This document shows, in pieces, positions 19,898-61,501 of a stretch of 64,000 nucleotides of DNA (the first letter of the stretch is position 1; the number at the start of each line of letters is the position of its first letter). A model generated the notes under the pieces. The model saw only the letters and a list, made by a program, of their open reading frames with translations, was not told where the DNA came from and ran no database searches. The DNA comes from Novisyntrophococcus fermenticellae. GTDB taxonomy: Bacteria > Bacillota > Clostridia > Lachnospirales > Lachnospiraceae. The stretch covers positions 682,001-746,000 of the forward strand of contig NZ_CP076458.1 in the NCBI RefSeq assembly GCF_018866245.1, given 5' to 3'. A program made the position numbers and the translations under genes.

Positions 19898-19920
19898 CCT
19901 ATAAAATGCAGGGGGATCAT

Positions 19921-42615: not shown

Positions 42616-43604
42616 ATGGAAAAGAAACACTATGGTGCGATTGGTGGATTGAGGATGATTGCTGCATTTGGCATTGTAATGATGTATGTAAGAGCGAATT
42701 CAAATTATGAAATATCAGGTTACGTGTATAACACAATTATTTCGTCATTTACAAACTTTGTGTTTCTCTTCATGACTGTTTCGGCATTTGGAATGTGCTG
42801 CGGTTACTACGATAAGGTACTTAACAATAAAGTAGATTGGCAGGATTTTTACGGAAAGCGTTTTAAGAAAATCCTCCCATTTTTTGGAGTTCTTGTACTG
42901 CTTGATATTGTTATGTCACCGTCAGCAGGAGCTTTGTGTGAGGCATTTGCCGATTTGACGTTGCTGTTTGGCTTCCTGCCTGATGCGGGGAATATTACAG
43001 TAATCGGTGTCGGGTGGTTTCTTGGACTGGTATTTGTATTTTATCTAATATTTCCGTTTTTCTGTGTACTTTTGGCAAATAAAAGACGGGCGTGGATTAC
43101 ATTCGCGGCCAGCTTAGTTTATAACCTTGTGTGTTCAAATTATTTTGCGGTTGGCCGAACAAATATTTTGTATAGTGTCTGCTTTTTTGTTGCAGGCGGC
43201 CTGATTTATTTATATCGGGATAAAATTTCAAAGTGGAATCAGTGGATTGCACTCGGAGCTGCCGGATGCGCGGCTGTACTCTACTATGTTGTTGGCGAAA
43301 ATGCAGCAATGTGTTTGCTGGTATCCAGCACCGTGTTAATTTGTGCAATTATTAATCGGGGGGGGTACTGGAGAACAGGGTTACAAAGTTCTTCAGCGGC
43401 ATCAGTATGGAGCTCTATCTCTCACACATGGTTATATTCCGTGTGATTGAGAAATCAGGTATCAATTGGATGTTTGGAAATGGATGGCTGCAATATGCGG
43501 TTACGGTCGTGGCTGTGCTGACGGGAGCGACTGTGTTTGCGGTTGTTATGCAGAGGATATTTGGTTTGGTTAAGAAAAAAGTAAGTGTGAGAAGTATCGG
43601 TTAG
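42616..43604 (+). pseudogene. Acyltransferase-3 gene, out of frame at a G8 tract (putative phase-variable, OFF)
   Basis: The first frame (42616-43446) encodes 276 aa of a polytopic PF01757 acyltransferase. At the G run 43358-43365 the reading frame leaves the family sequence. The missing end, VLENRVTKFFSGISMELYLSHM and onward to 43604, is intact in another frame. One more G (9), or two fewer (6), would join the parts into about 329 aa. Such proteins O-acetylate polysaccharides. The clean split exactly at a homopolymer is what slipped-strand phase variation looks like. A sequencing error gives the same picture. A paralogue at 45777 has its G run at the same codons. Confidence 0.8.
43358..43365 (+). 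repeat. Poly-G tract, G8, in acyltransferase gene
   Basis: Homopolymer of 8 G in the coding strand at an Asn-Arg-Gly-Gly position. The current count puts the downstream part out of frame. Confidence 0.95.
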
Positions 43605-44030
43605 ATAAATTGATAAACACATGAATTGGGAAAATAGCGGCTGGAAATAAGCTGCTTGAGCATAGAAAAGAAACATAGCATTTATGAAAAGAGTAACTGA
43701 AAGACATTAGAACAAGAGGAAGATTAAGATGCGGATATTAATGATTAACAATCTCCTCTATCCCAACAAAGGTAGTGAGATGTACATAGTGAAAAAGCCT
43801 TAAAAATGGCGTATTTACGGCATTTTTTGAGAGATGGATGGGGTCGTGAGAGGTGCTTTTATCTCGGAACCTTCATTTGGTAACAGCAGATGATTTTATC
43901 ATAAGGACTTTTAGTATCACTACCTGCGTTTGGATAGAGCACTCTGGTTTATGAGTAATACATCGGAAGTGTTTTATCCGAATGGGGGATATGAAACAAA
44001 GGAAAATCACAGCACGAAAAAGGAAAAATT
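43605..44030. other. Non-coding stretch with a glycosyltransferase remnant
   Basis: These 426 nt hold no intact gene. A truncated start of a glycosyltransferase gene is at 43729-43803. The remainder (43804-44030) shows no recognisable gene, repeat or terminator. Confidence 0.6.
43729..43803 (+). pseudogene. 5' remnant of a glycosyltransferase gene
   Basis: An AAGAGGAAGA RBS and 24 codons (MRILMINNLLYPNKGSEMY...) end in TAA. The sequence resembles the N-terminus of the intact transferase at 44031 (MRIIEINKFLFPNGGSETY). It looks like the leftover 5' end of a second transferase gene, possibly the one whose 3' half is attached at 45235-45752. Confidence 0.6.
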
Positions 44031-45752
44031 ATGCGTATTATCGAAATAAATAAATTTTTATTCCCAAACGGCGGATCAGAGACGTACATATTTAAGCTAG
44101 GTGAGGCACTGGAGCAGCATGGACACGAGGTTCAGTACTTCGGTATGGACCACAAGGGCCGCTGCGTTGGCAACCGGGTCAATGCTTACACGTCTGATAT
44201 GGATTTCCACGGAGGGTCGAAACTGAGCAAGCTGACCTACCCAATCAAGACAATCTACAGCAAAGAAGCACGGGTGCAGTTGCGGAAAGTGCTGGACGAC
44301 TTCCAGCCAGATGTCTGTCACCTGAATAATTTTAACTACCAGCTGACGCCTTCCGTGATTCTGGAAATCGTGAAGTGGCGCAAGGAGACTGGGCATAAGT
44401 GCAAGATCGTCTTTACGGCGCATGACTATCAGCTGGTCTGCCCGAACCATCAATTAAAGAACCCTATTACACATGAGAACTGTGAGAAGTGCCTTGGCGG
44501 TCATTTCGTGAACTGTGCGAAAGGCAAATGTGTTCACGGCTCTACTGCGAAGTCTATCGTGGGCATGATGGAAGCAGAATTTTGGAAATGGAATGGTGTC
44601 TACAAGTATATTGACAAAATCATTTGCTGCTCGGAGTTCCTGAAAACGAAGATGGACACCAATCCATTGTTTGCGACTAAAACTATTGCGATGCACAACT
44701 TTGTGGAAAAAGTGGAGCCTAAAGAAGTTGAGAACCAGGACTATGTTCTGTACTTCGGCCGTTTCTCTGAGGAAAAGGGCATCAACACACTGGTTGAAAC
44801 CTGCAATCTGTTACCAGATATTCAGTTTATCTTTGCTGGTTCCGGTCCACTGGAAGACAGGGTCAATCAGCTGAAAAATGTTAAGAATGTTGGTTTCCAG
44901 ACTGGTGACGCACTGGACAAACTGATTCGGGAAGCAAAGTTTTCCATCTGCCCTTCGGAGGTATACGAGAACTGCCCATTCTCCGTTATGGAGAGTCAGC
45001 AGCGCGGGACTCCGGTCATCGGTGCAAGCATTGGTGGTATTCCTGAATTGATCACCGATGGCGTGGATGGACGACTGTTCACAAGCCGGGATTCCAAGCA
45101 ATTGGCAGATATCATTAAAGAACTTTGGAACAATCCGGTAGAAACTGATAACTACGCAAAGGCGTGTCTAAACCTTGAACGAGATGACCTGGAGGCATAC
45201 TGCAATAAGCTCATCCCGATTTATCTGGGGGGGGTAATCCTCTGTAAGTATCAGCGGGTGGATTATGCGCTGTACTTTGGTCGCTTTTCCGAGGAGAAAG
45301 GTATTGGCACGCTCATCAAAGTCTGCAAGGAACTGCCGAATGTGCAGTTCATCTTCGCCGGCACTGGTCCGCTAGAGGACAGCATTAAGGGTGTTAAGAA
45401 CATCAAGAACGTCGGCTTCCAGAAGGGCGAAGCACTGGAAGAGCTCATCCGTGAGGCACGGTTCTCCATCTACCCGTCAGAGTGGTACGAGAACTGTCCG
45501 TTCTCCGTGATGGAATCCCAGATGTATGGCACGCCGGTGCTGGGAGCGAACATCGGAGGCATCCCGGAACTGATTCAGCTAGGCAAGACCGGCGAGTTAT
45601 TTGAGAGTGGTAATGTGGAGGATCTGAAAAAGAAGATCCAGAAGCTCTGGTGGGATAAGAAGCTGTGTCAGCAGTATAGCGAGAACTGTAAGGACATCAG
45701 CTTCGATACCATCGATGAGTATTACGAGAAAATTATGAAGGTGTATCAGTAA
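44031..45752 (+). CDS. Glycosyltransferase family 4 with duplicated C-terminal domain joined at a G8 tract
   Basis: Residues 1-400 form a complete GT4 enzyme: N-terminal NGGSETYIFKL, a cysteine-rich loop around CEKCLGG, and C-terminal VLYFGRFSEEKG and ENCPFSVMESQQRG. After a G run (45227-45234) a second copy of the donor-binding half follows (ALYFGRFSEEKGIG, ENCPFSVMESQMYG), without its own acceptor domain. With 8 G the product is 573 aa. With 7 G a TAA follows at once (401 aa), and with 9 G a stop comes four codons later (405 aa). The extra half is probably the 3' end of a deleted second transferase gene. Whether the fused form is made is unknown. Confidence 0.8.
   Translation: MRIIEINKFLFPNGGSETYIFKLGEALEQHGHEVQYFGMDHKGRCVGNRVNAYTSDMDFHGGSKLSKLTYPIKTIYSKEARVQLRKVLDDFQPDVCHLNNFNYQLTPSVILEIVKWRKETGHKCKIVFTAHDYQLVCPNHQLKNPITHENCEKCLGGHFVNCAKGKCVHGSTAKSIVGMMEAEFWKWNGVYKYIDKIICCSEFLKTKMDTNPLFATKTIAMHNFVEKVEPKEVENQDYVLYFGRFSEEKGINTLVETCNLLPDIQFIFAGSGPLEDRVNQLKNVKNVGFQTGDALDKLIREAKFSICPSEVYENCPFSVMESQQRGTPVIGASIGGIPELITDGVDGRLFTSRDSKQLADIIKELWNNPVETDNYAKACLNLERDDLEAYCNKLIPIYLGGVILCKYQRVDYALYFGRFSEEKGIGTLIKVCKELPNVQFIFAGTGPLEDSIKGVKNIKNVGFQKGEALEELIREARFSIYPSEWYENCPFSVMESQMYGTPVLGANIGGIPELIQLGKTGELFESGNVEDLKKKIQKLWWDKKLCQQYSENCKDISFDTIDEYYEKIMKVYQ
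45227..45234 (+). repeat. Poly-G tract, G8, at glycosyltransferase domain junction
   Basis: Homopolymer of 8 G followed by TAATCC. Only one of the three frame states (8 G, or changes by three) reads through into the extra half. Confidence 0.95.
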
Positions 45753-45776
45753 GACTGGTATGTGAGGAGAGAACTT

Positions 45777-46523
45777 GTGGCTACAAAAGCGGATCGATAT
45801 GAGGGAATAGACGGCTTAAAGGCGTATGCCATTATTGGCATCGCACTGATGCAAGTCCTCGCAAATGGAGAATATGGAATAGGAGGATTTGTGTTTGAGT
45901 GGCTTATTCCGTCTTTCACAAACCTCGTTTTCCTTTTTATGATGGTCAGTGGCTTTGGTATGTGCTGTGGCTATTACCAGAAAATTGTTGACCAGAAGAT
46001 AAGTGTAGAGGACTTCTATAAGAAGCGGTACATCAAAATCTGGCCATACTTTGCACTGCTTTGTGCACTGGACTTTGTGATTTCGCCGAGTAAGGAATCC
46101 TTGTTTGAAATTTTCGCAAATTTAACTTTGTGTCAGGGACTTCTGCCGAATGCGAAGATTTCTGTCATCGGTGTGAGTGGACACTGGCCGTTATTTTTGT
46201 GTTCTATATGCTTTTCCCGTTCTTCTGCATTGCAGCACTAATTTATACCCTCGGATGCAATCGGGGGGGGGGGACTGGTCAATCCAGTTGCCAAGTTTCT
46301 CGGTGGTATCTGCTTCGAGATTTACCTGTGCCACATGGTAATTTATCGTGTGCTTGAGAAGTTGCACCTCATTCATCTATTTGGAAACGGTCTGCTGGCA
46401 TATATCTTCACAGCTATTGCAGTAATTTGTGGTTCAGTTGTGTTTTCGGTATGTGCCAAGTGGTTCTTAAATAAAATCGAAACATTCTTAAAAGAGAGAG
46501 TTAGGAGAGTTAATCATGTCTGA
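45777..46523 (+). pseudogene. Acyltransferase-3 gene, degraded, with a G11 tract
   Basis: A GTG at 45777 with GGAG upstream opens a frame paralogous to the acyltransferase at 42616 (GFGMCCGYYQKIVD vs AFGMCCGYYDKVLN). The family sequence is broken three times: a 1-nt loss near 46168 moves WTLAVIFVFYMLFPFFC into another frame; about 100 residues present in the paralogue are missing after FPFFC; and the G run 46263-46273 sits before VNPVAKFLGGICFEIYLCHMV in a third frame. The G run is at the same Asn-Arg-Gly-Gly site as in the paralogue. With the internal deletion this copy is likely dead. The end overlaps the radical SAM gene start by 8 nt. Confidence 0.8.
46263..46273 (+). repeat. Poly-G tract, G11, in degraded acyltransferase gene
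   Basis: Longest homopolymer of the window apart from A runs. A count of 10 would join the preceding and following frames. Confidence 0.95.
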
Positions 46524-47697
46524 AGAAAAGAAGTTAAATGGTACGGTCATCGTTACTTATCGTTGCAACGCTCGTTGCTCCATGTGTAACCGTTATAAGG
46601 CACCTTCCAAGCCGGAAGAAGAAATCAGCATCGAAACCATCAAGAAGTTGCCGAAGATGTACTTCACCAATATCACCGGCGGTGAACCGTTCATCCGCAC
46701 CGACTTGAAGGATATTGTGCGTGAGCTGTACAAGAAGTCTGACCGCATCGTTATTTCGACCAACGGCTTCTTCACCGACCGCATCGTTGACCTGTGCAAG
46801 GAGTTTCCGCAGATCGGTATTCGTATTTCCATCGAGGGTCTGGAGCAGACCAACAACGAGATCCGTGGCTTGCAGAACGGCTACCAGCGTGGTTACGGTA
46901 CGCTGAAAAAACTGCGCGAGATGGGCATGAAGGACGTTGGCTTCGGTATGACCGTTCAGGACAAAAACGCTCCTGATTTGGTTCCTCTCTACAAAATCTC
47001 TGACGAGATGGGCATGGAGTTTGCTACGGCTTCTCTGCACAACAGCTTCTACTTTGTTGAGGCGAAGAACATTATCCATGACCGTCCGATGGTTGCTAAG
47101 AATTTCGAGAATCTTGTCAATGAACTGCTCCGCAGCAATAGCCCGAAGAAGTGGTTCCGTGCTTACTTTAATCACGGCCTGATCAACTATATCTACGGCC
47201 AGAAACGTCTGCTGCCTTGCGACATGAGCTTTGATACTTTCTTTATTGATCCGTATGGCTATGTCATGCCTTGTAATGGTACCAAGGATAAAGAAGTCAT
47301 GGGCAACCTGAACAACCAGACATGGGATGAGTTGTGGAATAGTCCGGAAGCAGAAAAGGTTCGTGCAAAGGTTCGCTGCTGCGACCGTGATTGCTGGATG
47401 ATTGGTTCTGTTTCTCCGGCTATGCATAAGTATATCTGGAAACCAGCCACTTGGGTTCTGGTCCATAAGTTTAAGGCTCTGTTCACCAAACATCCGTACA
47501 ACATGTACGAGTTGAAGATTTGCCGTGACTACCGTGATGGCAAAGTTACCAAAGAAGAACTGGACAAGTGCAGCACCTGCGATATGAACTGCGTGATCAA
47601 CAACGGTCTGAGTGAGGCGTCTAAGGAGCAGCTGAAGCATAAGACTGGCGAAGAAATCGTGGATGCTGATATCGCACAGCAGATGGAGACGAAGTAA
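46516..47697 (+). CDS. Radical SAM protein with SPASM-like C-terminus
   Basis: The 393-aa protein has the radical SAM cluster motif Cys17-x3-Cys21-x2-Cys24 (CNARCSMC), the SAM-binding NITGGEP motif and ISTNG. The C-terminal third holds LPCDMSFDTFFIDPYGYVMPCNG, CCDRDC and CSTCDMNC, which supply ligands for auxiliary clusters. Its position between acyltransferase genes of a polysaccharide locus suggests modification of a sugar or lipid-linked intermediate. The reaction is unknown. Codon use is more G+C-rich than in the genes from 50057 to 57340. A GGAGAG RBS is present. Confidence 0.85.
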   Translation: MSEEKKLNGTVIVTYRCNARCSMCNRYKAPSKPEEEISIETIKKLPKMYFTNITGGEPFIRTDLKDIVRELYKKSDRIVISTNGFFTDRIVDLCKEFPQIGIRISIEGLEQTNNEIRGLQNGYQRGYGTLKKLREMGMKDVGFGMTVQDKNAPDLVPLYKISDEMGMEFATASLHNSFYFVEAKNIIHDRPMVAKNFENLVNELLRSNSPKKWFRAYFNHGLINYIYGQKRLLPCDMSFDTFFIDPYGYVMPCNGTKDKEVMGNLNNQTWDELWNSPEAEKVRAKVRCCDRDCWMIGSVSPAMHKYIWKPATWVLVHKFKALFTKHPYNMYELKICRDYRDGKVTKEELDKCSTCDMNCVINNGLSEASKEQLKHKTGEEIVDADIAQQMETK

Positions 47698-48706
47698 TGA
47701 GTGAAAAGACAGCGGCAAGAACAAGAGAAAAATGGGTTGATGATGTGAAAGTTATCGCCTGTATATTGGTTGTATTGGGGCATTTCTTTCAGAGCATGAC
47801 AAAGGCAAATATTCTTCCAGAGAGTGATTTGTACGAGTGGTTCAACACAACAATCTACTACTTCCATGTGCCGCTGTTCTTCATTTGTAGCGGATACCTG
47901 TATCAGAAATACAGTCAGGTTAACAGTGTTGGTAGTTGGTGTAAGAATGTGATGAAGAAGGCGTTAGCACTCGGTGTGCCCTATGTGACTTTTACGACTG
48001 CTACGTGGGTACTGAAAAAGGTATTCTCAAGTAGCGTTAATGACCAGATTGGTGGTCTCGGCGACACACTATTCCTTCACCCGACTGCTCCGTACTGGTA
48101 TTTGTATGCACTGCTCTTTATCTTCTTTATCACGCCGACGTTTAGCAATGCGAAGGCAGCGGCAGTGGGACTGATAGTTGCATTGGCTGCCAAAGTCCTG
48201 ATTTTAACGGGGGGGGGTACAGCGTTTACGCAGTATCGACAGTTCTCTCAAACGAAATCTGGTTTGTGCTCGGTATGAGTATTTGTGTGTTTAATGTGCA
48301 GATACGAGGAAAGAAGTTACAGGGAACAGTATTTGGTTTGTTGTTCTTTTTGTTGAGCGTAGCGGTGTATATGGCTGATATTCAGAATTTGGTACTGTCA
48401 TTTGAGCTTGGATTGGTGGCTTGTGCTGCGGTGATTCTTTTGATAGCTGACTATGAAAGAAAAAGTGGTAAAGTCATGGGATTCCTTGCAAAATACACCA
48501 TGCCGATTTTCTTGCTGCACACATTGTTTGCAGCACCGCTGAGGTCTGTTCTGCTGAAGATTGGCATTACAAATGCTGAGGTTCATGTGGTGCTGGGACT
48601 TGGAATCAGCTTTGCAGGTCCGATTATAGCTGCATGGATTATGAAGAAAACAAAGTGGCTGGAGTTCTTTTTGTATCCAAATAAAATTATAAAGCATTAT
48701 GTTTGA
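47697..48706 (+). pseudogene. Acyltransferase-3 gene, out of frame at a G9 tract (putative phase-variable, OFF)
   Basis: The ATG shares one base with the radical SAM stop. The first frame gives an N-terminal PF01757 part (VKVIACILVVLGHFFQS, YYFHVPLFFICSGYLY) and then leaves the family pattern at the G run 48209-48217, stopping at 48278. The correct continuation, YSVYAVSTVLSNEIWFVLGM and the last helices to 48706, lies in another frame. G10 or G7 would give an intact protein of about 336 aa. Nothing else is damaged, so this is the cleanest contingency-locus candidate. The product would O-acylate the polysaccharide or a precursor. Confidence 0.82.
48209..48217 (+). repeat. Poly-G tract, G9, in acyltransferase gene
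   Basis: Homopolymer of 9 G in the coding strand; 7 or 10 would restore the frame. Confidence 0.95.
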
Positions 48707-48744
48707 ATGCAATGAATGTGGCTCTGTTGTTATGGAGGATAACT

Positions 48745-49992
48745 ATGAAAAATTATAAAATCGCTGTGGCCGGAACTGGTTATGTGGGGTTGTCAATCGC
48801 TACACTGCTTTCCCAGCATCATCAGGTGACAGCTGTGGATATTATTTCGGAAAAAGTGGAATTGATTAACAATCGCAAATCTCCGATTCAGGATGATTAC
48901 ATTGAAAAATATCTAGTAGAAAAAGATTTGAATTTGACTGCAACACTAGATGCGAAGGCAGCATATTCGGATGCGGATTTTGTTGTAATTGCTGCCCCTA
49001 CCAACTATGACAGCCATACACAGCATTTTGATACATCCGCTGTCGAAGCTGTGATTAAACTGGTTATGGAATATAACCCGACTGCGATCATGGTCATCAA
49101 GTCTACGATTCCTGTGGGCTATACCGCAAGCGTGCGTGAGAAGTTTAACAGCAAGAACATCATCTTCAGCCCGGAGTTCCTGCGTGAATCCAAGGCTCTA
49201 TATGACAACCTGTATCCGAGTCGCATCATCGTTGGTACTGACCTGAACGATGAGCGTCTAGTTGAGGCTGCTCATGAGTTCGCTGGTCTGCTGCAGGAAG
49301 GTGCTATCAAGGAGAATATCGACACTCTGTTCATGGGCTTCACCGAGGCAGAGGCAGTTAAACTGTTCGCCAACACATATTTGGCACTGCGTGTTGCTTA
49401 CTTCAATGAGTTGGATACATACGCAGAGAGCAAGGGTCTGAACACTCAGCAGATCATCGATGGTGTTTGCCTTGATCCTCGTATCGGCAGCCACTACAAC
49501 AATCCGTCCTTCGGCTATGGCGGCTACTGCCTGCCGAAAGATACCAAGCAGCTGCTGGCGAACTACGCCGATGTGCCGGAAAACTTGATTGAAGCTATTG
49601 TCGAGAGCAACAGAACAAGAAAAGACTTCATCGCTGACCGTGTTCTGAAACTGGCTGGCTACTACGGCTATGACGAGGACAACGAATACGATGAAAAGCA
49701 GGAAAAGCCTGTGACTATCGGTGTGTATCGTCTGACCATGAAATCCAATTCTGATAACTTCCGCCAGAGCTCCATTCAGGGCGTTATGAAGCGCATCAAG
49801 GCCAAGGGAGCAACGGTGGTCATCTATGAGCCGACCCTGAAAGACGGCGATACTTTCTTCGGCAGCGTTGTGGTCAATGATCTGGCTAAGTTCAAGGAAA
49901 TGAGCAACGCCATCATCGCAAATCGCTATGACAGGTGCTTGGATGATGTGAAAGAAAAAGTATATACAAGAGACTTGTTCGGTAGAGACTGA
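48745..49992 (+). CDS. ugd: UDP-glucose/GDP-mannose 6-dehydrogenase family enzyme, copy 2
   Basis: The ATG at 48745 follows TATGGAGGAT; the frame is open upstream. The 415-aa protein is a close paralogue of the enzyme at 40124 and keeps GTGYVGLS and [14 protein letters not shown]. Codon use changes inside the gene: the first ~350 nt are A+T-rich, the rest more G+C-rich, which suggests a mosaic. It supplies UDP-uronic acid, as does copy 1; the redundancy is unexplained. Confidence 0.9.
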
Positions 49993-50011
49993 GAAAATAG
50001 TAATAGTGCTG

Positions 50012-50044
50012 TTCGGAAGGTTTCCGAAAACGAGTTAGTATAAT
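50012..50044 (+). promoter_or_regulatory. Small hairpin and -10-like box before the A+T-rich gene block
   Basis: TTCGGAA-GGT-TTCCGAA forms a 7-bp hairpin (50012-50028) and TATAAT follows at 50039-50044. The start codon is 13 nt further on, too close for a normal promoter of this gene. Function is unclear. Confidence 0.3.
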
Positions 50045-50056
50045 GAAGGGAATACC

Positions 50057-51205
50057 ATGAGAATACTAATCATTAGAAGCTATCCTAGCTATATGGATGT
50101 TGAAAGAAATACATATAATATACAAGAAGTCGGTCTTGCGAAGGCACTTGTCAGAAAAGGGCACATTTGTGATATTGTTTTTTGGACGGACAAAGAAGAA
50201 AAAAATATCACAATCACAGTTGAAGGTTATGGAAATGTAAATGTCTTTTATCGCCATGGAAAGACTGCATTGAAAAACACGGTATATACTAATTGTGCAG
50301 AATTATTTAAGCATTATGATATATTACAAACAGCTGAATATAATCAAATGCAATCGTGGCTGCTAGCTAAACAATATCCTAAAAAAACCATCATATACCA
50401 CGGTCCATATTATTCGCACTTTAACAAACGATATAATACGATGTGCTCAGTTTTTGATATGTTCTTTTTGAAAAGATATTTAAAATTGGGAACGCATTTT
50501 ATCACCAAAAGTAAAATGGCCCAAGAATTCCTAGAGAATAAAGGAATTAAGAGAGCTAATATTGGAACAGTTGGAGTCGGCATGGATACACAGATGCTAT
50601 CAAACTCCAAAGAAGTGTGTACAGAACCACTATTTTTGACGATGCGTCAAGATGAAAATTTGAAGCTTCTATATATAGGAAGATTTGAAAAACGGAGAAA
50701 TATACATTTTATTTTGGATGTCTTTTCGAAAGTCATAAATAAGAAAATGAATGCCACGCTGTATATGATAGGAACAGGAGACAAGGATTATATAGAAGAT
50801 TGTTGGAAGTATGCAGAAAGCAAAAATATTAAGAACCACATAGTATACCAAGAAAAAATGGAACAAAAATATTTGGCTGGAGTGTACGGTTTGGCGGACA
50901 TCTTTTTACTTCCGACTGAATATGAAATTTTTGGTATGGTATTACTAGAGGCTATGTATTACCACTCAGTTGTGCTAACAACACTTAATGGCGGATCAAG
51001 CACTCTGATTGATAATGGCAAAAACGGATTTGTTCTAACGTTGAATAATGCAAATGACTGGGCAGATTGTATCGAAAAAATTTCGAGAGATAAAAATACG
51101 GCGATGAATATTTGTGGTCTGGCATCTCATAAAATCCAAGAAGGTTTTACATGGGATAAGCTGGCAGATCGATTCATTGAACAGTATAATAAAGTCTTGC
51201 AGTAA
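50057..51205 (+). CDS. Glycosyltransferase family 4
   Basis: The 382-aa protein has the two-domain GT-B outline: N-terminal MRILIIRSYPSYMD, and in the C-terminal half LLYIGRFEKRRNI and the donor-site motif EIFGMVLLEAM. A possible retaining transferase for one residue of the repeat unit. It begins the distinctly A+T-rich block of the locus (to about 57340). A GAAGGGAAT RBS is present. Confidence 0.88.
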   Translation: MRILIIRSYPSYMDVERNTYNIQEVGLAKALVRKGHICDIVFWTDKEEKNITITVEGYGNVNVFYRHGKTALKNTVYTNCAELFKHYDILQTAEYNQMQSWLLAKQYPKKTIIYHGPYYSHFNKRYNTMCSVFDMFFLKRYLKLGTHFITKSKMAQEFLENKGIKRANIGTVGVGMDTQMLSNSKEVCTEPLFLTMRQDENLKLLYIGRFEKRRNIHFILDVFSKVINKKMNATLYMIGTGDKDYIEDCWKYAESKNIKNHIVYQEKMEQKYLAGVYGLADIFLLPTEYEIFGMVLLEAMYYHSVVLTTLNGGSSTLIDNGKNGFVLTLNNANDWADCIEKISRDKNTAMNICGLASHKIQEGFTWDKLADRFIEQYNKVLQ

Positions 51206-51224
51206 TAAGAGATGGAGTGGAAAA

Positions 51225-53328: not shown

Positions 53329-53361
53329 ATGCAGTAGAAGTATAAGAAGGGAGGGAAGATT

Positions 53362-54645
53362 TTGAACGGAATACACCTATACATTAAAAGAAATCCATTG
53401 CCTGAAGAATTGTACCTCCAATTCATGCTCTTGCTGGGATTGCTTTTTGGGTATTTTGAAGTTACAGCCTTTTGGAACGCAGGAGTTATTCTATTGACTG
53501 GTTGGCTGTTGCTTGCATCTAATCGTATTCAAAAAATTATACGACAAAACGCAATGGCTGTACTTTTGTTATTTTGCTTGATATGTTTTATTGCGCTGAA
53601 CATAATTTATATGGGAACAGGGGCATACCTATCATATAATCTAATACAGATTGTAAGACCGATAATAATCCTTTGTGGGATTTTTTATATTAGTCAAGAA
53701 AAAAATGACATAATATATAATTTTCTATCAGGAAATTTTGGCCTACTTAATCTAATGTGGATTGTCAATTTATTTGTTTTGGGTCTGCAAGTCGCAGGAA
53801 CAGGCTTCATGATTAAGGCAAGTTGGATGGCAACCAATAGTTTTTACACTGATAATTGTACAGGTTTGTTTGGCGGAAGTGCTACCCATGTAGTGATGCT
53901 ATTTACGATATTTATTACAATTTACAATTTGGAGTTTGGAATCAAGCGGTTTAGCATCGGATGGAAGAAGAAGGGATTTTGTGCCTATGTTTTTGGAACG
54001 TTGGGACTAATGCTTTTATTTTCTACCCTAAATGATAATACAGCAATGTTTATTTTTGTGCCAATATTTCTTGTTTGGTATTATCTGCATAAATTGAGAA
54101 TTGTTGATACGACACTTTTCAATAAAATCTTTGATATTTTAAAATATGTTATTTTGGCAATCCTACTGCTGTTTGTACTGCAATTCATTCCTGGAGTATC
54201 GGATTTTATAAATACAACAGTAATGGATAAGATTGACGGTGTAATTAATTTTGAAGATACTAATGGACTTGGAAGCGTTGAGAGATTGGCTATCGCAAGT
54301 GATGCGCTGAATCGTGGCTTTGGTTGGAAACTGGGTCAAGGATTAGGAGCATGGAATATTATGGGTGGAAGGTATGCAGGCTTTTTGCATTTTGGCCTGA
54401 GTTCTGTCGGATCTTTTATCTATTTGATGGGAATATGGGGGTATCTAATTATAACGGTAGTTTATGCATATCTCATGTCGCACATGCGTAGTGAAGGTGC
54501 AAAATTATCATTCATAATTACTTTTGCGATGGTCAATTTATTGTGCTTTTATACAATGTTTTTGACTGCAACACACGCAATCGTGTGGTCGATTTTTATT
54601 TTCTTAATGCTTAACAGCGTTGGAATGGAGAAACATGGACAATAA
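53362..54645 (+). CDS. wzy: Putative polysaccharide polymerase (Wzy-like)
   Basis: A TTG start is preceded by GGGAGGGAAG. The 427-aa protein is almost entirely hydrophobic, with about ten membrane helices and one larger outward loop around residues 285-350. Sequence conservation in this family is low; the call rests on topology, size and position before the flippase gene. It would link repeat units outside the membrane. Confidence 0.7.
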   Translation: MNGIHLYIKRNPLPEELYLQFMLLLGLLFGYFEVTAFWNAGVILLTGWLLLASNRIQKIIRQNAMAVLLLFCLICFIALNIIYMGTGAYLSYNLIQIVRPIIILCGIFYISQEKNDIIYNFLSGNFGLLNLMWIVNLFVLGLQVAGTGFMIKASWMATNSFYTDNCTGLFGGSATHVVMLFTIFITIYNLEFGIKRFSIGWKKKGFCAYVFGTLGLMLLFSTLNDNTAMFIFVPIFLVWYYLHKLRIVDTTLFNKIFDILKYVILAILLLFVLQFIPGVSDFINTTVMDKIDGVINFEDTNGLGSVERLAIASDALNRGFGWKLGQGLGAWNIMGGRYAGFLHFGLSSVGSFIYLMGIWGYLIITVVYAYLMSHMRSEGAKLSFIITFAMVNLLCFYTMFLTATHAIVWSIFIFLMLNSVGMEKHGQ

Positions 54646-56056
54646 GCAAATAAAACAAAATAACAAAGCGTTATTAACCGGAACAATAGTATACGCCATA
54701 GGAAATTTGGGAACTAAAATCCTTACATTCTTAATTGTTCCTCTTTATACATACTATATCAGTACATCTGATATGGGAGACTATGACCTTTTAATTACAA
54801 GTGTTAGTTTATTAACTCCACTAATTAGCTTAAGGATTTCGGATGCAACCTATAATTGGATGATCAAACGAACAGCGAGTAATGAGATATGTATAAAAGC
54901 TACTTATAACTATTTGTTGAAAAGTTGTGCACTTGCAGTCATAATTATTGGTGTTGCAAGTCGCTTTATACATATTTGGAATGTAGGGTTGTTTTTGGCA
55001 ATCATGGTTCTTGAACCTATATTGGAGACAACTCAAAAGATTTTGCGTGGGTTGAAAAATCAGAAACTGTTTGCGGCATCGGGAATTATTTATACAGGTA
55101 TACTTGTTTCGCTTAATTTCCTTACGGTTTGTGTTTTGAAAATTGGCGTGACAAGTTTGCTTGTGAATACTGTTATCAGCCATATCATAAGCATTGCACT
55201 CATTTTCTGCTTGGAGAAGAGAATGAGATGCTTGACAGTAACAGTCAATAAATCCGAACTCCTGATTACTCAAAAAGAGATGCTGAAATACTCTATGCCC
55301 TTAGTGCCATCGACGCTTAGTTGGTGGGTGATGAGTGTGTCGGATAGATATGTAGTGCGTTTTTTCCTTGGTAGTTCTTTTAACGGCATATATGCAATTG
55401 CAACGAAGTTTCCATCTGTTCTTCAAACATTCTTTGTGCTGTTTAATAACGCATGGACAGATATGGTTTTGGCTAATTTACAGTCAAAAGAAGAAAACAG
55501 TAAATATGTATCTGACTTATTTGAAAAAATGTACATGTTTTCTTTTTCAGCTATTTTCTGCCTAATTCCAGTAACGAAGGTTATTACACAGGTTATATTG
55601 AGTACGGATTATAAGATCGGATCGATTTATATTGGTTTCCTATATTTAGGAGCAGTTTTTCAGGGATTTTCAACATTTGCAAGTGTTGGGTATCTTCAGA
55701 GTAAAAAAACAGCTAGAGCGGCAACGTCAAGTTTGGCGGGCGCAATAGTCAACTTACTTGTGGATTTTATATTGATAAAGGCTGTTGGCTTATTTGCGAC
55801 AGCACTTTCGACTTATGCCGGTTTCTTAGTGATGTGGCTCGTTCGGATGTATGATATTAGAAAGGATTGGCCGATTGCGGTAAATATACCTAAATTTACA
55901 ATAATGACGTTTGTGGCTACTATTATTGCAACCGTAACGATTTGGACAACAGTTGAAATTGACGCAATTATGACAGCGTTTTTTGGAGTCCTTTTTATTG
56001 CCTTAAATAAGAATTATATTACTGCAATTATCAAAAAGGTAAAACACAAGCGATAA
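54635..56056 (+). CDS. wzx: Oligosaccharide flippase (Wzx-like)
   Basis: The ATG at 54635 with GGAG 5 nt upstream is preferred over a TTG at 54620. The 473-aa protein has about 12 to 14 membrane helices and the PST-family start (GTIVYAIGNLGTKILTFLIVPLYTYYIS, DYDLLITSVSLLTPLISL). It moves the lipid-linked repeat unit across the membrane. It overlaps the polymerase gene by 11 nt. Confidence 0.88.
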   Translation: MDNKQIKQNNKALLTGTIVYAIGNLGTKILTFLIVPLYTYYISTSDMGDYDLLITSVSLLTPLISLRISDATYNWMIKRTASNEICIKATYNYLLKSCALAVIIIGVASRFIHIWNVGLFLAIMVLEPILETTQKILRGLKNQKLFAASGIIYTGILVSLNFLTVCVLKIGVTSLLVNTVISHIISIALIFCLEKRMRCLTVTVNKSELLITQKEMLKYSMPLVPSTLSWWVMSVSDRYVVRFFLGSSFNGIYAIATKFPSVLQTFFVLFNNAWTDMVLANLQSKEENSKYVSDLFEKMYMFSFSAIFCLIPVTKVITQVILSTDYKIGSIYIGFLYLGAVFQGFSTFASVGYLQSKKTARAATSSLAGAIVNLLVDFILIKAVGLFATALSTYAGFLVMWLVRMYDIRKDWPIAVNIPKFTIMTFVATIIATVTIWTTVEIDAIMTAFFGVLFIALNKNYITAIIKKVKHKR

Positions 56057-56084
56057 ATGAAGTGGAGAGGAGAAATAGTTACAA

Positions 56085-57140
56085 ATGAATGCATTGAAGA
56101 CTTATGCTTGCTATAATAAAAATAATGAGTTGAGAATGAGGAGTTCTTCAGGAGCTATTTTTTCTTCTCTGGCAGAGTGCGTATTTGAAAAGCATGGTGT
56201 CGTATATGGCGTAGCAATGTCAAGTGATTGTTATGCGGCTGAGCTTATTTCAGTCACAAATAAGAATGACTTGGATAAACTTCGAGGTTCAAAATATTTG
56301 CAAGCAAAAGTTGGTAATGCATTTAAAAATATAAAAAAAGATCTATTGTTAGGTAAAATCGTTCTGTTTACTGGAACAGGATGCCAAGTTAATGGTCTGA
56401 AAAAATATCTGGGTAAAGAATATGAAAACTTGATTTGTGTGGATGTTATTTGCCATGGTGCACCGTCGCCTGCATTGTGGAAAGAATATGCACAGTATCA
56501 GGAACAGAGAAATGGAGGAAAGCTGAAGAGCGTCAATTTCCGGTGTAAGGAAAATAGCTGGACCGATTTTGGGATGAAAGAGGTTCTTGAAGATACTTCA
56601 GAAGGAAAAGCCAAGAAATTATTTATATCTAAAGACGAAGATTTTTATATGCAGATGTTCTTGAAAAACTATTGCCTGAGACCATCTTGTTATGATTGTG
56701 TGGCAAAAAAGCAGAAAATGTCTGACTTAACGATTGCTGATTTCTGGGGAATCAATGATGTTGAACCAGAGATGAGTGATGGGCTTGGAACGTCATTGGT
56801 ATTGATTCGCACAGTTAAAGGACAGAATATATTTAATCAGATCAGTATTAAGCTGAAATTAAAAGAAGTGTCTTATGAAGCTGGAGTGAAAAAGAACTCT
56901 GCAGAATTTAGATCGTGTACAAGACCATTGCAAAGAGATGCATTTTTTGATGATATGCGTAACTTAAACTTTGAAGAATTGGAAGAAAAATATTCTGCTC
57001 CAATAAAGCATTCATTGAAAGCGAAAATAAAAAACTTAATCAAGAGTATACTTCGGGTAATCCGGGGGGCAGAGAGAGTAATGCAGAATATGGATTACTC
57101 TTTGTGTTTCGTGTTTGATTGTAAGGAGGAGCATCATTGA
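56085..57140 (+). CDS. F420 hydrogenase/dehydrogenase beta-subunit-like protein of polysaccharide loci
   Basis: The 351-aa protein carries the FrhB/FdhB pattern SSSGAIFSSLAE, YGVAMSSD, LRGSKYLQAKVG, LFTGTGCQVNGLKKYL, VDVICHGAPSP and CLRPSCYDC-x-AK, then LTIADFWGI. The family binds flavin and Fe-S clusters. Copies in polysaccharide clusters usually carry a ferredoxin domain at the N-terminus; here that domain is a separate gene just downstream, overlapping by 3-4 nt. The substrate is unknown. Confidence 0.85.
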   Translation: MNALKTYACYNKNNELRMRSSSGAIFSSLAECVFEKHGVVYGVAMSSDCYAAELISVTNKNDLDKLRGSKYLQAKVGNAFKNIKKDLLLGKIVLFTGTGCQVNGLKKYLGKEYENLICVDVICHGAPSPALWKEYAQYQEQRNGGKLKSVNFRCKENSWTDFGMKEVLEDTSEGKAKKLFISKDEDFYMQMFLKNYCLRPSCYDCVAKKQKMSDLTIADFWGINDVEPEMSDGLGTSLVLIRTVKGQNIFNQISIKLKLKEVSYEAGVKKNSAEFRSCTRPLQRDAFFDDMRNLNFEELEEKYSAPIKHSLKAKIKNLIKSILRVIRGAERVMQNMDYSLCFVFDCKEEHH

Positions 57141-57337
57141 AAGAGATACCAATATTATATAGCAGAAAAGAAGAATGCAGTGGGTGTACTGCCTGTTATG
57201 CGATTTGTCCACAAGAAGCTATTTCGATGATAGAGGACGAAGAAGGCTTCGAATATCCACACATTGATGAAAATAGGTGCGTTCGTTGCTATCAGTGTTT
57301 GAAGGTTTGTCCTTTTAAGATAGAGAATGAAGCATAA
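57137..57337 (+). CDS. Small 2[4Fe-4S] ferredoxin
   Basis: A TTG start (TTGA overlap with the previous stop, AAGGAGG RBS) opens 66 codons. Two motifs, CSGCTACYAICP and CVRCYQCLKVCP, are complete clusters of the bacterial ferredoxin type. Overlap with the preceding F420-beta-like gene implies that both form one electron-transfer unit. Confidence 0.92.
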   Translation: MKEIPILYSRKEECSGCTACYAICPQEAISMIEDEEGFEYPHIDENRCVRCYQCLKVCPFKIENEA

Positions 57338-57352
57338 GAAAGGTAATAAAAA

Positions 57353-58536
57353 ATGGGAAAGTATTTTGGAACGGATGGCTTCCGTGGCGAAGCCGGAATT
57401 ACATTAATTGCAGACCATGCCTATAAGGTGGGTCGCTTCTTGGGCTGGTATTACAATGCTCTGCGTGAGCGCAACGGCGATACCGACCCTGCTCGTATCG
57501 TTATCGGCAAGGACACCCGTCGCAGCTCCTATATGTTCGAGTATAGCCTGGTTGCTGGTTTGACCGCTTCTGGTGCAGATGTCTATCTGCTCCACGTTAC
57601 CACTACTCCGTCTGTGGCATACATCGCCCGAGTGGATGACTTCGACTGCGGCATCATGATCTCTGCCAGCCACAACCCGTACTACGATAACGGCATTAAG
57701 CTGATCGACTGTTATGGTGAAAAAATGCCGGAGGAAACTCTGCAACTGGTAGAGGATTATATTGACGGTAAACTTCATGTGTTCGATAAGGATTGGTCGG
57801 AACTGCCTTTTGCGCATCGTGAGCACATCGGCTGCACCGTGGACTATGTGGCAGGCCGTAACCCGAAGTTTGTTGTGGAGAAGGGCTTGGACATTGGTTT
57901 TGCCTACGATGGCGACGCTGACCGTTGCCTGTGCGTGGACGAGAAGGGCAATGTCATCACTGGTGACCATATCCTGTACATTTATGAATGCTACATGAAG
58001 GACGTGGTAAACTTCTGACCAATACTGTTGTTACCACTGTCATGTCCAACTTTGGCCGGTACAAGGCGTTTGACGAGCAGGGCATCGGTTACGCTAAGAC
58101 TGCTGTCGGTGATAAGTATGTTTACGAGTACATGGCTAAGAACGGCTGCCGTATCGGTGGTGAGCAGAGCGGCCATATCATCTTCTCCAAGTACGCCAGC
58201 ACCGGCGATGGTATCCTGATCAGCTTGAAGATGATGGAAGTCATGCTGGCAAAGAAAAAGCCTATGAGCGAGCTGGCAGCACCGCTGAAGATCTATTCGC
58301 AGGTTTTGGAGAATGTCCGTGTGACCGATAAGAAGGCTGCACAGAATGATCCTGCCGTGCAGGAAGCGGTGTCTAAGGTTGCTGAGGCACTGGGTGATAC
58401 CGGCCATATTCTGGTTCGTGAGTCCGGCACGGAGCTGGTTGTGCGTGTTATGGCGGAAGCACCTGACCATGATACCTGCCAGAAGTATGTTGATGGAGTG
58501 GTCAACGTGATTTGCGAAAAGGGATATAAGGCGTAA
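57353..58536 (+). pseudogene. glmM: Phosphoglucosamine mutase gene, frameshifted and internally deleted
   Basis: The start (GKYFGTDGFRGEAG), GKDTRRSS, the phosphoserine site ISASHNPYYDNGIK and the metal loop YDGDADRC identify GlmM, which interconverts glucosamine 6- and 1-phosphate. Two lesions are visible. About 70 residues normally present between VDYVAGRN and VEKGLDIGFAYDGD are missing (near 57862). A 1-nt loss near 57999-58002 ends the first frame at 58018, while the C-terminal part (RGKLLTNTVVTTVMSNFG to 58536, with RESGTELVVRVM) continues in another frame. The full family length is about 450 aa; the parts here add up to about 394. Probably a non-functional extra copy. Confidence 0.85.
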
Positions 58537-58544
58537 AGTCAATG

Positions 58545-58574
58545 ACGACTCTGGCATTACCCGGAGTCGTTTTA
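58545..58574 (+). terminator. Rho-independent terminator after glmM
   Basis: A 10-bp stem with one G-U pair, ACGACTCTGG (58545-58554) with CCGGAGTCGT (58561-58570), ends in TTTT. A TATAAT box at 58589-58594 may start a separate glmS transcript, though no good -35 box is seen. Confidence 0.8.
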
Positions 58575-58629
58575 CATAAGAGGGAAAGTATAATAGAGTA
58601 GAGAAGTAAATAACGGGAGGGATAAACCT

Positions 58630-60498
58630 ATGTGTGGAATCGTTGGTTTTACAGGAAATAGACAAGCAGCACCGATTCTGTTGGACGGCCTGTCGAAACT
58701 GGAATATAGAGGATATGACTCGGCGGGACTGGCCGTCCGGGATGGAGAAAATCTGGCACAGGTTGTGAAAGCAAAAGGCCGCCTGTCCAATCTGATCAAG
58801 AAAACGGATAACGGAAATGCTCTGAAAGGAACCTGTGGTATCGGGCACACTCGCTGGGCAACACATGGTGAGCCGAGCCAGACGAATGCGCATCCGCACG
58901 TTTCCGGTAACTGCACCCGTTCTGGTTCTGGTGCAGTTGAATCAGAAGTTGTCGGTGTGCATAACGGTATCATTGAAAACTATACAGAGCTGAAGGAAAA
59001 GCTGCTGAAGCGCGGCTATACATTCTACAGCCAGACAGATACCGAAGTGGTCATCAAGTTAGTGGACTACTATTATAAAAAGTATAATCTCGGCCCTATC
59101 GATGCCATTGCCAAGACGATGGTTCGTGTCCGTGGCTCCTATGCTCTTGAGCTGATGTTCCGTGACTATCCGGGCGAAATCTGGGTGGCCCGTAAGGACA
59201 GCCCGATGATCATCGGTATTGCGGATGGTGAGACCTATGTGGCTTCGGATGTCCCTGCAATCCTGAAGTATACGAGAAATGTCTACTATATCGGGAACCT
59301 TGAGTTTGCAAAGCTGGTTCCGGGTGAGGCTCACTTCTATGACCTGAATGGCGATGAGATCGAGAAGCAGACCACAGAAATTAAGTGGGATGCAGAGGCA
59401 GCAGAAAAAGCAGGCTTCGAGCACTTCATGATGAAAGAGATCCATGAGCAGCCAAAAGCTGTTCAGGATACTATGAACTCTGTGATCAAGGACGGTGCAA
59501 TCGACCTGTCCAGCGTGGAAATCACCGAGGATGAAATCAAGAACTTCGAGCAGATCTATATCGTTGCCTGCGGTTCTGCATGGCATGTAGGTATGGCTGC
59601 TCAGTATGTGCTGGAAGATATAGCAGATATCCCGGTGCGTGTGGAACTTGCATCTGAGTTCCGCTATCGCAAGATGCCGCTCAATCAGAATGCTCTGGTG
59701 ATTGCTGTCAGCCAGTCTGGCGAGACAGCGGATACACTGGCAGCACTTCGGCTTGCAAAAGAGAAAGGTATCACCACGATGGCAATCGTCAATGTGGTGG
59801 GCAGCAGTATTGCTCGTGAAGCGGACAAGGTGTTCTACACACTCGCTGGCCCGGAAATCTCTGTTGCGACAACCAAGGCATACAGCGCACAGCTTGCAGC
59901 TATGTACTGCCTGGCTGTTCAGTTCGCAAAAATCAGAGGTAAAATTACGGACGAACAGTACAGTTACTATATTTCTGAACTGCTGACTCTCCCGGAAAAG
60001 ATGCAGAAAGTCCTGGAAGACAAGGAGCGTATCCAGTGGTTTGCTGCGAAGTACGCCAATGCACATGACGTGTTCTTCGTGGGGCGTGGTATCGACTATG
60101 CAGTCTGCTTGGAAGGCAGTCTGAAGCTGAAAGAAATCAGCTATATCCACTCGGAAGCATATGCTGCGGGAGAACTGAAGCACGGAACCATCAGCCTGAT
60201 CGAGCAGGGAACACTGGTCATCGGTGTGCTGACACAGAGTGAGCTGTACGAGAAAACTGTAAGTAATATGCTAGAGTGCAAGAGCCGTGGAGCCTACCTG
60301 ATGGGTCTGACTATCTACGGAAAATACGAAATCGAGGATCAGGTGAACTTCACAGTTTATGTGCCAAAGGTGGATGAACACTTTGTTGGCAGCCTTGCAG
60401 TGATCCCGCTGCAGTTGCTGGGATACTATGTGTCTGTTGCAAAAGGTCTGGACGTGGATAAACCGAGAAACCTTGCGAAGAGTGTGACGGTGGAATAA
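58630..60498 (+). CDS. glmS: Glutamine-fructose-6-phosphate aminotransferase
   Basis: The 622-aa enzyme begins with catalytic Cys2 (MCGIVGFTGN), has the N-terminal glutaminase domain (GHTRWATHG, VHNGIIENY), two SIS isomerase domains (CGSAWHVG, SQSGETADT, VATTKAYSAQ) and the conserved C-terminus LAKSVTVE. It is about 13 residues longer than E. coli GlmS, owing to an insert (GNCTRSGSGAVES) before VHNG. It makes glucosamine 6-phosphate for amino-sugar precursors. No glmS ribozyme core is recognisable in the short upstream region. Confidence 0.95.
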   Translation: MCGIVGFTGNRQAAPILLDGLSKLEYRGYDSAGLAVRDGENLAQVVKAKGRLSNLIKKTDNGNALKGTCGIGHTRWATHGEPSQTNAHPHVSGNCTRSGSGAVESEVVGVHNGIIENYTELKEKLLKRGYTFYSQTDTEVVIKLVDYYYKKYNLGPIDAIAKTMVRVRGSYALELMFRDYPGEIWVARKDSPMIIGIADGETYVASDVPAILKYTRNVYYIGNLEFAKLVPGEAHFYDLNGDEIEKQTTEIKWDAEAAEKAGFEHFMMKEIHEQPKAVQDTMNSVIKDGAIDLSSVEITEDEIKNFEQIYIVACGSAWHVGMAAQYVLEDIADIPVRVELASEFRYRKMPLNQNALVIAVSQSGETADTLAALRLAKEKGITTMAIVNVVGSSIAREADKVFYTLAGPEISVATTKAYSAQLAAMYCLAVQFAKIRGKITDEQYSYYISELLTLPEKMQKVLEDKERIQWFAAKYANAHDVFFVGRGIDYAVCLEGSLKLKEISYIHSEAYAAGELKHGTISLIEQGTLVIGVLTQSELYEKTVSNMLECKSRGAYLMGLTIYGKYEIEDQVNFTVYVPKVDEHFVGSLAVIPLQLLGYYVSVAKGLDVDKPRNLAKSVTVE

Positions 60499-60525
60499 CG
60501 ACTCTTGAATGTAGGAGAAAAATAA

Positions 60526-61501
60526 ATGCCAACAGAGAATATCATAAGAAAAAGTCGAATGGATTATATAGATATATATATAGCATTTGGCATTATTTTG
60601 ATGGTCATGGGGCATATTGGATTTGGCGGAAAGTTTGACCAGTTCATACATGCCTTTCATATGCCGATGTTTTTCTTTATATCAGGGTTCTTTTATAAAG
60701 AAAAACATATTGATGTGAAAAAGTGTGCTTTTGATAAAGCAAAAAAACTCCTGACGCCGTATTTTGTATTCGGGGGGGTGCTGCTTCCTTTGGTGTCTGA
60801 ATAGTGGATTTTCAGCAGAACCATGGATGCACTTGTTGCTGATTAATACTACAGGGATTCCAATCGCTGGAGCAATCTGGTTCTTAACAGCATTGTTTTT
60901 CACAGATATAATTTATATGTTTCTTGTAAAACATAAAATAAAGTGGATCATTTTGCTGCTCGTAGTTGTTGGAAGTTATGCAGATCAAGTACTTCCGTAT
61001 CCTCTGCCGTGGGCACTTAGCGCAGCATTTGTTGGATTGGGCTTGTATTGGATCGGAAACGAAACGGCGAAAAATCAAGACAAGCTGAAAGTAGTATTAA
61101 ATATGCCGCTTTTATTATGTATAATATTGGGTATATTGGAAGTAAAGCTTATTCTGTCCAATGGCTATATAAATATGCGGGAAGGAACATACGCATTTGT
61201 TCCTCTTTTTTGGGTAAATGCGATTCTTTCAATTTTTGTCGGCATCTCACTATCAAAGAAAGTTGAGAATGCTATTAAGGGTACTAATGTGGCAAGCTGG
61301 TTGACTTCAATAGGAAGGGACTCAATCGTTTATCTGTGTTGTAATCAGCTGGTAATCAAAGCGGTGACAGTTGTATTTGGACACTTTATGGTGCTATCGG
61401 TGGACGAAAATATTCTTGTGCTGGTAGTAAGTATGATTATTCTATACATGCTGTCGGTACTGTTTACCAAAACGAGATTGAAGATACTTGTTGGCAAGTA
61501 A
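60526..61501 (+). pseudogene. Acyltransferase-3 gene, out of frame at a G7 tract (putative phase-variable, OFF)
   Basis: The first frame encodes the PF01757 N-terminus (MDYIDIYIAFGIILMVMGH, FHMPMFFFISGFFYKEKH) and stops at 60804 shortly after the G run 60772-60778. The continuation (CCFLWCLNSGFSAEPW, then IPIAGAIWFLTALFF to 61501) is intact in another frame. G6 or G9 would give about 324 aa. The product would O-acylate the polymer. A strong GTAGGAGAAA RBS argues that the gene is still meant to be expressed. Confidence 0.8.
60772..60778 (+). repeat. Poly-G tract, G7, in acyltransferase gene
   Basis: Homopolymer of 7 G in the coding strand; 6 or 9 would restore the frame. This is the shortest of the five tracts. 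Confidence 0.95.

Follow-up and report, generated by a model that had tools for sequence, protein, structure and literature searches.

Why do four acyltransferase genes in one polysaccharide locus lose their reading frame, and what are the long guanine runs that they carry? The question is raised by a 64,000-nucleotide stretch of the Novisyntrophococcus fermenticellae genome (contig NZ_CP076458.1, positions 682,001 to 746,000, forward strand), referred to as the window. Its capsule/exopolysaccharide locus holds four Acyl_transf_3 (PF01757) genes, here called AT-A, AT-C, AT-D and AT-E, and a GT4 glycosyltransferase gene, each with a G run. On the evidence of alleles in related genomes, the locus very probably makes a capsule or exopolysaccharide, with AT-A and AT-D as simple-sequence contingency genes that vary by slippage at poly-G. 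An initial annotation had proposed a whole set of poly-G contingency loci here; the proposal is upheld by the alleles of AT-A and AT-D and by selection on the AT-A/AT-C type, but not for AT-C itself or for on/off switching of the glycosyltransferase.

G runs in the acyltransferase genes

Five G runs of at least 7 were found in the 64-kb window (lengths 8, 8, 11, 9 and 7) and no C run of at least 7. All five lie on the coding strand of genes in this one locus, and our recount and the Pfam matches agree with the initial annotation on the runs and on their hosts, namely four acyltransferase genes and one glycosyltransferase gene. The parts of these genes are as follows (aa, amino acids).

42616-43446, + strand: upstream open part of AT-A, Acyl_transf_3, 276 aa (PF01757, 3.6e-16), out of frame past the G8
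43358-43365, + strand: G8 tract of AT-A (run scan)
43366-43604, + strand: downstream part of AT-A in another frame, open to the natural C-terminus (PF01757 positions 270-325, below the cut-off alone)
44031-45752, + strand: GT4 glycosyltransferase, 573 aa, a GT-B enzyme (about 399 aa) followed by a second GT-B C-terminal domain (171 aa)
45227-45234, + strand: G8 tract of the glycosyltransferase, at the C-terminus of its first unit (run scan)
45762-46521, + strand: AT-C, Acyl_transf_3, with a frameshift near 46178, a 270-bp deletion and a G11 (Pfam, alignment)
46263-46273, + strand: G11 tract of AT-C, homologous in position to the AT-A tract
47697-48278, + strand: upstream open part of AT-D, Acyl_transf_3, 193 aa (PF01757, 1.7e-23)
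48209-48217, + strand: G9 tract of AT-D (run scan)
48266-48706, + strand: downstream part of AT-D in another frame, open from the tract on (PF01757 positions 200-326, 27.4 bits, below the cut-off alone)
60526-60804, + strand: upstream open part of AT-E, Acyl_transf_3, 92 aa (PF01757, 1.5e-12)
60772-60778, + strand: G7 run of AT-E (run scan)
60764-61501, + strand: downstream part of AT-E in another frame, with no Pfam match by itself

The upstream halves of AT-A, AT-D and AT-E pass the curated PF01757 cut-off (31 bits), and AT-C exceeds it only when its pieces are summed. The initial annotation places the frame loss of every one of the four acyltransferases precisely at the run; this is correct for AT-A, AT-D and AT-E, where the frame changes there, but not for AT-C, which loses frame about 85 bases earlier (near 46178) through a one-base gap relative to its relatives. 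The whole genome contains five Acyl_transf_3 genes (eight matches, several being pieces of one gene): these four, all broken and all with a run of at least 7, and a fifth (C1:2468483) that is open over 350 aa.

Both strands of the whole genome (one contig, 3,420,321 bases) hold five G runs of at least 8, of which four fall inside 4.9 kb of the locus, in keeping with the four in 5 kb first reported. Chance was modelled with Markov chains of orders 1-3, trained on the window including its tracts, with 40 simulations per order. The mean number of runs of at least 8 per 64 kb was 1.1, 0.1 and 0.2 for orders 1, 2 and 3, against four observed, and the maxima for orders 2 and 3 were 1 and 2. By the tract counts and simulations, these coding-region homopolymers are longer than chance would give, although the G7 of AT-E would fall short of this by itself.

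Alleles of AT-A and AT-D in related genomes

For AT-A and AT-D, relatives were classed by motif and length in a protein database clustered at 90% identity, so that the counts of ON (in-frame) and OFF proteins are not allele frequencies. The AT-A search returned 2946 matches, of which the best 120 were classified. After RGG, 69 continue with VLENRVTKFFSGISMEIYLSHM (about 330 aa; ON), 39 with YWRTELQSSS (about 272 aa) and 11 with TGEQSYKVLQ (about 277 aa), variants included, and one was too short to class. The three frames part after the Gly-Gly of the tract. The closest of these 120 relatives, P0001 (91% identical), is OFF in a frame unlike the OFF frame of the window copy. The ON/OFF pair P0004/P0011 is identical over the 248 aa before the tract, and the 109 sequences parsed include three ON/OFF pairs that are at least 97% identical up to that point.

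AT-D behaves in the same manner. The best 120 of its 2009 matches continue with YSVYAVS (ON, 67), TAFTQYR (38) or VQRLRSI (13), again with variants, leaving two others, and the in-frame proteins vary by one Gly (TGGYSVY vs TGGGYSVY). Forty-one ON/OFF pairs at least 97% identical before the tract were counted in 117 parsed sequences. ON and OFF proteins are identical over 171 aa before the tract in P0128/P0133, named Blautia producta, and likewise in P0162 versus P0183-P0186. At the DNA level, loci L019 and L036 both have a G8 at the AT-D tract site, with the frame changed. A G10 in L211 breaks an AT-D-type gene at another place, which points to independent gain of tracts in this gene.

A scan of genome records yielded 58 related loci for DNA-level comparison at the homologous AT-A/AT-C tract site (codons 245-266); L069 and L070 have no second half near the first, leaving 56. 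A G run of at least 7 is present at this site in 13 of the 56, and nine of these are broken (L026, L030, L031, L035, L036, L061, L062, L063 and the G9-bearing L067) and four intact (L023, L032, L033 and L046). Among the 43 loci without such a run, 40 are intact and three broken (Fisher p 1.6e-5, kinship ignored). The ON share of 4/13 is compatible with the one in three given by random lengths. By their record titles, L035, L061, L062 and L063 are cultured strains, and many others are metagenome bins; in cultured strains, frame loss at the site was seen in Catenibacillus scindens DSM 106146 (G10), Clostridium fessum (G7), Mediterraneibacter glycyrrhizinilyticus An427 (G9) and F. prausnitzii APC923/51-1 (G7). 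The comparison with related genomes proposed by the initial annotation turned up both in-frame and out-of-frame alleles for AT-A and AT-D, and G runs at the same codons at the AT-A/AT-C site and, in L019 and L036, at the AT-D site, but in none of seven relatives at the AT-E site.

Coding potential downstream of the tract is kept in OFF alleles of the AT-A/AT-C type. The half past the tract is free of stops to its end in all 15 tract alleles of this type (the window copy, the 13 tract loci and L041), with the caveat that the alignment of the window copy extends beyond its own stop. Between OFF alleles of the AT-C type with synonymous divergence (dS) below 1, the nonsynonymous and synonymous values (dN/dS) were 0.056/0.86 for L061/L062, 0.044/0.97 for L061/L063 and 0.005/0.071 for L062/L063, each ratio lying far below 1. 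For AT-D, openness was seen in the window copy alone. The invariant E and H of the motif SMEIYLSHM in AT-A relatives lie in the part that is lost when OFF. AlphaFold models of two ON relatives were poor (mean pLDDT 50 and 40); both place the Gly tract between predicted helices, which counts for little. A sequence comparison with solved structures gave no match, and no fold search was made. The sole NCBIfam match of the ON relative P0133 was NolL, far under its cut-off.

Judging from known loci, the simplest cause is slipped-strand mispairing at the poly-G tract, which would alter its length, and the second half of the membrane enzyme would be translated in only one of the three length classes. 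The OFF state would remove the C-terminal part with the conserved E and H, and both AT-A and AT-D read OFF in this assembly. AT-E could be a more recent switch, the third of its kind, and AT-C seems to have been one before it decayed; the glycosyltransferase tract may determine whether an extra C-terminal domain is present and not whether the enzyme is on or off. The population would then be a mixture of cells whose polysaccharide is acylated differently, as the AT3 family to which the enzymes belong suggests (PMC9558356). Slippage as the cause, its reversibility, the acylation phenotype and selection by phage or immunity are what we infer; that phage or antibody is the selecting agent is conjecture.

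Three other explanations were weighed. The genes could be intact and their frame loss an artefact of assembly or sequencing indels, as homopolymers are error-prone and a phosphoglucomutase-like gene nearby is likewise split, without a G run. However, the eight A/T runs of 7-8 in 22 long upstream open reading frames of the window (about 40.6 kb summed) are all in frame, a small control that is only modest because these frames were picked from the list as open; other genome records, including those of cultured strains, also show the frame lost at this site, and runs of such length are not produced by miscalled indels, so that we regard a pure artefact as highly improbable. Alternatively, a redundant polysaccharide cassette gained by horizontal transfer could be undergoing ordinary pseudogene decay, which would suit the 270-bp deletion and separate frameshift of AT-C, as well as the glycosyltransferase remnants and the split phosphoglucomutase-like gene nearby. 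Such decay would not put breaks at one site across many species, leave the half after the tract free of stops and low in dN/dS, or yield intact alleles identical before the tract; it is a very unlikely account of the whole, a likely one of AT-C and a possible one of AT-E. Slippage might instead take place on RNA, with the polymerase or ribosome slipping at the G tract and making some full-length enzyme from every allele. Homopolymers can be slippery and OFF alleles retain coding potential, but genomes differ in frame at the site, with all three classes present, as DNA-level variation predicts. As the sole mechanism this is very unlikely, and RNA slippage may form an added layer on DNA variation.

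Several observations weigh against contingency switching at AT-A and AT-D. The order-1 simulations peaked at four runs of at least 8, equal to the number observed. The fifth genomic G8 breaks an amino-acid ABC transporter gene and no polysaccharide gene. The Fisher test takes related loci as independent. L041 (G6 at the site), L068 (tract-free) and L071 (partial) are broken without a run of at least 7, and L047, L049 and L052 have a G6 at the site and are intact. The selection test is weak for the AT-A type, because 20 of 21 comparisons of its C part had dS above 1 or undefined (dN 0.23-0.47); the remaining comparison, L026/L030, gave 0.325/0.668. Exact tract lengths may be miscalled. True decay is present in the locus (AT-C, the glycosyltransferase remnants at 43730-44000, identified by eye, and the split phosphoglucomutase near 57995) and may account for some of the frame loss.

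AT-C, AT-E and the glycosyltransferase tract

AT-C looks degenerate, because it has a separate frameshift and a 270-bp deletion, and it is probably dead whatever its tract does. The 270 bp are present in Faecalibacterium sp. I4-3-84 (L047, 90% DNA identity). We also considered whether the G runs are scars left by recombination or joins of the assembly, as AT-C and the glycosyltransferase had seemed discontinuous there; this was rejected, for the AT-C deletion, which has TTCTG at each of its edges, ends about 36 bases short of the run. In Fusicatenibacter saccharivorans (L070:8333) the AT-C gene has a different large deletion, so that decay of this gene has occurred more than once.

AT-E is the weakest candidate for a switch, because none of the seven relatives that cover its site (eight fetched) has a run of at least 6 G there. 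One AT-E relative, L135, carries a G7 at a different place in the gene without loss of frame. Samples of 392, 397, 391 and 391 genomes from the order, family and class were scanned for AT-D and AT-E beyond their own genome, and gave no match above 62% identity over a comparable length for AT-D and a best full match of 40% for AT-E. Wide presence of either gene in these groups was thereby ruled out for the sampled genomes; for want of closer matches there, both genes look sporadic.

The 573-aa glycosyltransferase consists of a full GT4 enzyme (399 aa), the G8, and a second C-terminal domain (171 aa) that is 57% identical to the first unit's own. It is in frame through the G8, and the other two frames stop within seven codons (GGGNPL*, GG*). 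Among the best 120 of 3747 relatives at this junction, the tandem form is found in 20, and 18 stop at most four residues after IYxGG, such as P0261/P0266 (GGGNPL) and P0263/P0265 (GG). All three outcomes thus exist as proteins. Each contains the first enzyme in full, so the tract is no on/off switch; it may instead determine whether the enzyme is made singly or with a second domain attached. At the DNA level, none of 39 single-glycosyltransferase gene ends read had a G run of at least 6. The annotated combination of up to 2^3-2^4 on/off states is accordingly an overstatement for this genome, given the other lesions of AT-C, a G7 in AT-E unshared by seven relatives and a glycosyltransferase that is not switched on and off.

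The locus, its cassette and known switches

The remaining parts of the locus, assigned by Pfam, are listed here.

35632-63363, + strand: capsule/exopolysaccharide locus, with CpsB/CapC, Wzz, AAA_31 (Wzd-like), surface Ig-like and priming glycosyltransferase genes
35632-63363, further genes of the same locus: UDP-sugar dehydrogenases, glycosyltransferases, pyruvyl transferase, Wzx-type flippase, GlmS-type (GATase and SIS) and VanZ
46516-47697, + strand: radical SAM/SPASM protein (PF04055, PF13186)

The set may be of the Wzx/Wzy type: the priming glycosyltransferase, Wzx, Wzz and tyrosine-kinase-type genes have Pfam matches, and the gene at 53362-54645, without a Pfam match, is a candidate for Wzy. 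Beside the GlmS-type gene, a PGM/PMM-type phosphohexomutase gene (57353-58536) occupies two frames, its split near 57995 being a lesion or a sequencing error. Ahead of the GT4 glycosyltransferase gene, at 43730-44000, are two fragments that by eye look like its beginning, a sign of recombination within the locus. Outside the locus, repeats with a 21-base period and one consensus occur at 19193-19232 and 26540-26579, near the ends of the adjacent large genes 14881-19848 and 19906-27195.

The fifth G8 of the genome (C1:982993-983000; L013:4994-5001) splits a gene for an ABC substrate-binding protein of the branched-chain amino-acid type (family by eye). In genus-mate L215 the corresponding gene, 98% identical in its C part, stays open there and has GGGTGGA in place of the run; this G8 is either a new contingency tract or a recent break. 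G8 runs in five genus-mate species are few and scattered. That the locus is common to genus-mates was rejected, as a 6.2-kb stretch is unmatched at the DNA level in the five other species compared.

Tracts are not confined to acyltransferases in the related loci. On the acyltransferase strand of the 58 loci (852,114 bases) we counted 32 G and 3 C runs of at least 7. FrhB-like genes have a tract at one recurrent place, out of frame (L023, L049, L062), and GT2 genes have tracts that are out of frame in L046 and in frame in L049 and L061. Further runs fall in other genes, and some have no assigned host. A G9 scan of eight related-locus genomes gave 42 tracts, of which 39 were read, leaving out two contig-end tracts and L035's own AT-A tract. 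The longest open stretches flanking the tract share a frame in 13 of the 39 and do not in 26, a rough count since some tracts are intergenic. By eye, the hosts include FrhB-like, LbetaH acetyltransferase, GT2, AT3 and surface proteins. The window has a G6 (57064-57069) close to the 3' end of its FrhB-like gene, and runs near the ends of such genes are also found in C. fessum (L183, G9) and F. prausnitzii (L208, G10); perhaps these form another C-terminal switch.

The radical SAM/SPASM protein recurs in 44 of the 58 related loci, with 82-99% identity in tract-bearing loci where found, which suggests a shared mobile cassette. The window copy is 97-99% identical to those in L031, L047, L049, L061-L063, L068 and L070, a sign of recent transfer, and in some metagenome proteins (P0287-P0293) the protein is fused to a glycosyltransferase. 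We put forward, tentatively, that gut Clostridia might share a horizontally transferred cassette of AT3, GT4, radical SAM/SPASM and FrhB-like genes, with repeated independent gain of poly-G, combinatorial surface variation and a phase-variable glycosyltransferase domain fusion (single vs tandem).

Phase variation by strand slippage is familiar chiefly from a small number of host-adapted pathogens, and what is known of phase variation in Clostridia mostly concerns DNA inversion. Helicobacter has poly-G/C contingency loci as do Campylobacter and Neisseria, whose genomes hold more tracts each, and tandem repeats are known for pneumococcal wciZ. Of the published systems, compared here through the portions of the cited papers available to us, the sortase-pilus switch of Bifidobacterium breve UCC2003 likewise involves an intragenic G tract with ON/OFF alleles of a surface structure in a Gram-positive gut commensal; it concerns pili in Actinobacteria rather than polysaccharide acyltransferases, with replication slippage measured (PMC9187656). 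The pneumococcal capsule O-acetyltransferase genes wciG (33G/33H, 35B/35D) and wciZ (15B/15C) resemble ours as acetyltransferases of a Firmicute capsule locus lost via indels, in wciG in slippage-prone homopolymeric regions, but that portion mentions no long poly-G tract that different species preserve at a single codon (PMC11934437). The oafA gene of Haemophilus influenzae encodes a phase-variable AT3-family membrane O-acetyltransferase that also acts on a surface glycan, there Gram-negative lipooligosaccharide (PMC9558356). The contingency loci of Campylobacter and Neisseria (poly-G/C or simple sequence repeats), from another taxon, are similarly hypermutable intragenic homopolymer tracts, many affecting the cell surface (PMC8355987, PMC5084427). 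Examples of phase variation by DNA inversion have been described in C. difficile (PMC11868660). No report of poly-G or slippage switches in polysaccharide genes of Clostridia was found among the open-access papers that our searches listed; the mechanism is known from pathogens and bifidobacteria, and the host group and gene set are new as far as this literature search goes.

At present, such switch genes are easily recorded as broken. The tract sites recur at the DNA level in Faecalibacterium, Mediterraneibacter, Catenibacillus and Clostridium fessum, and at the protein level in Blautia producta; common gut commensals would therefore vary their coat at random. If true, this would matter for phage resistance, for recognition by antibodies and for strain typing.

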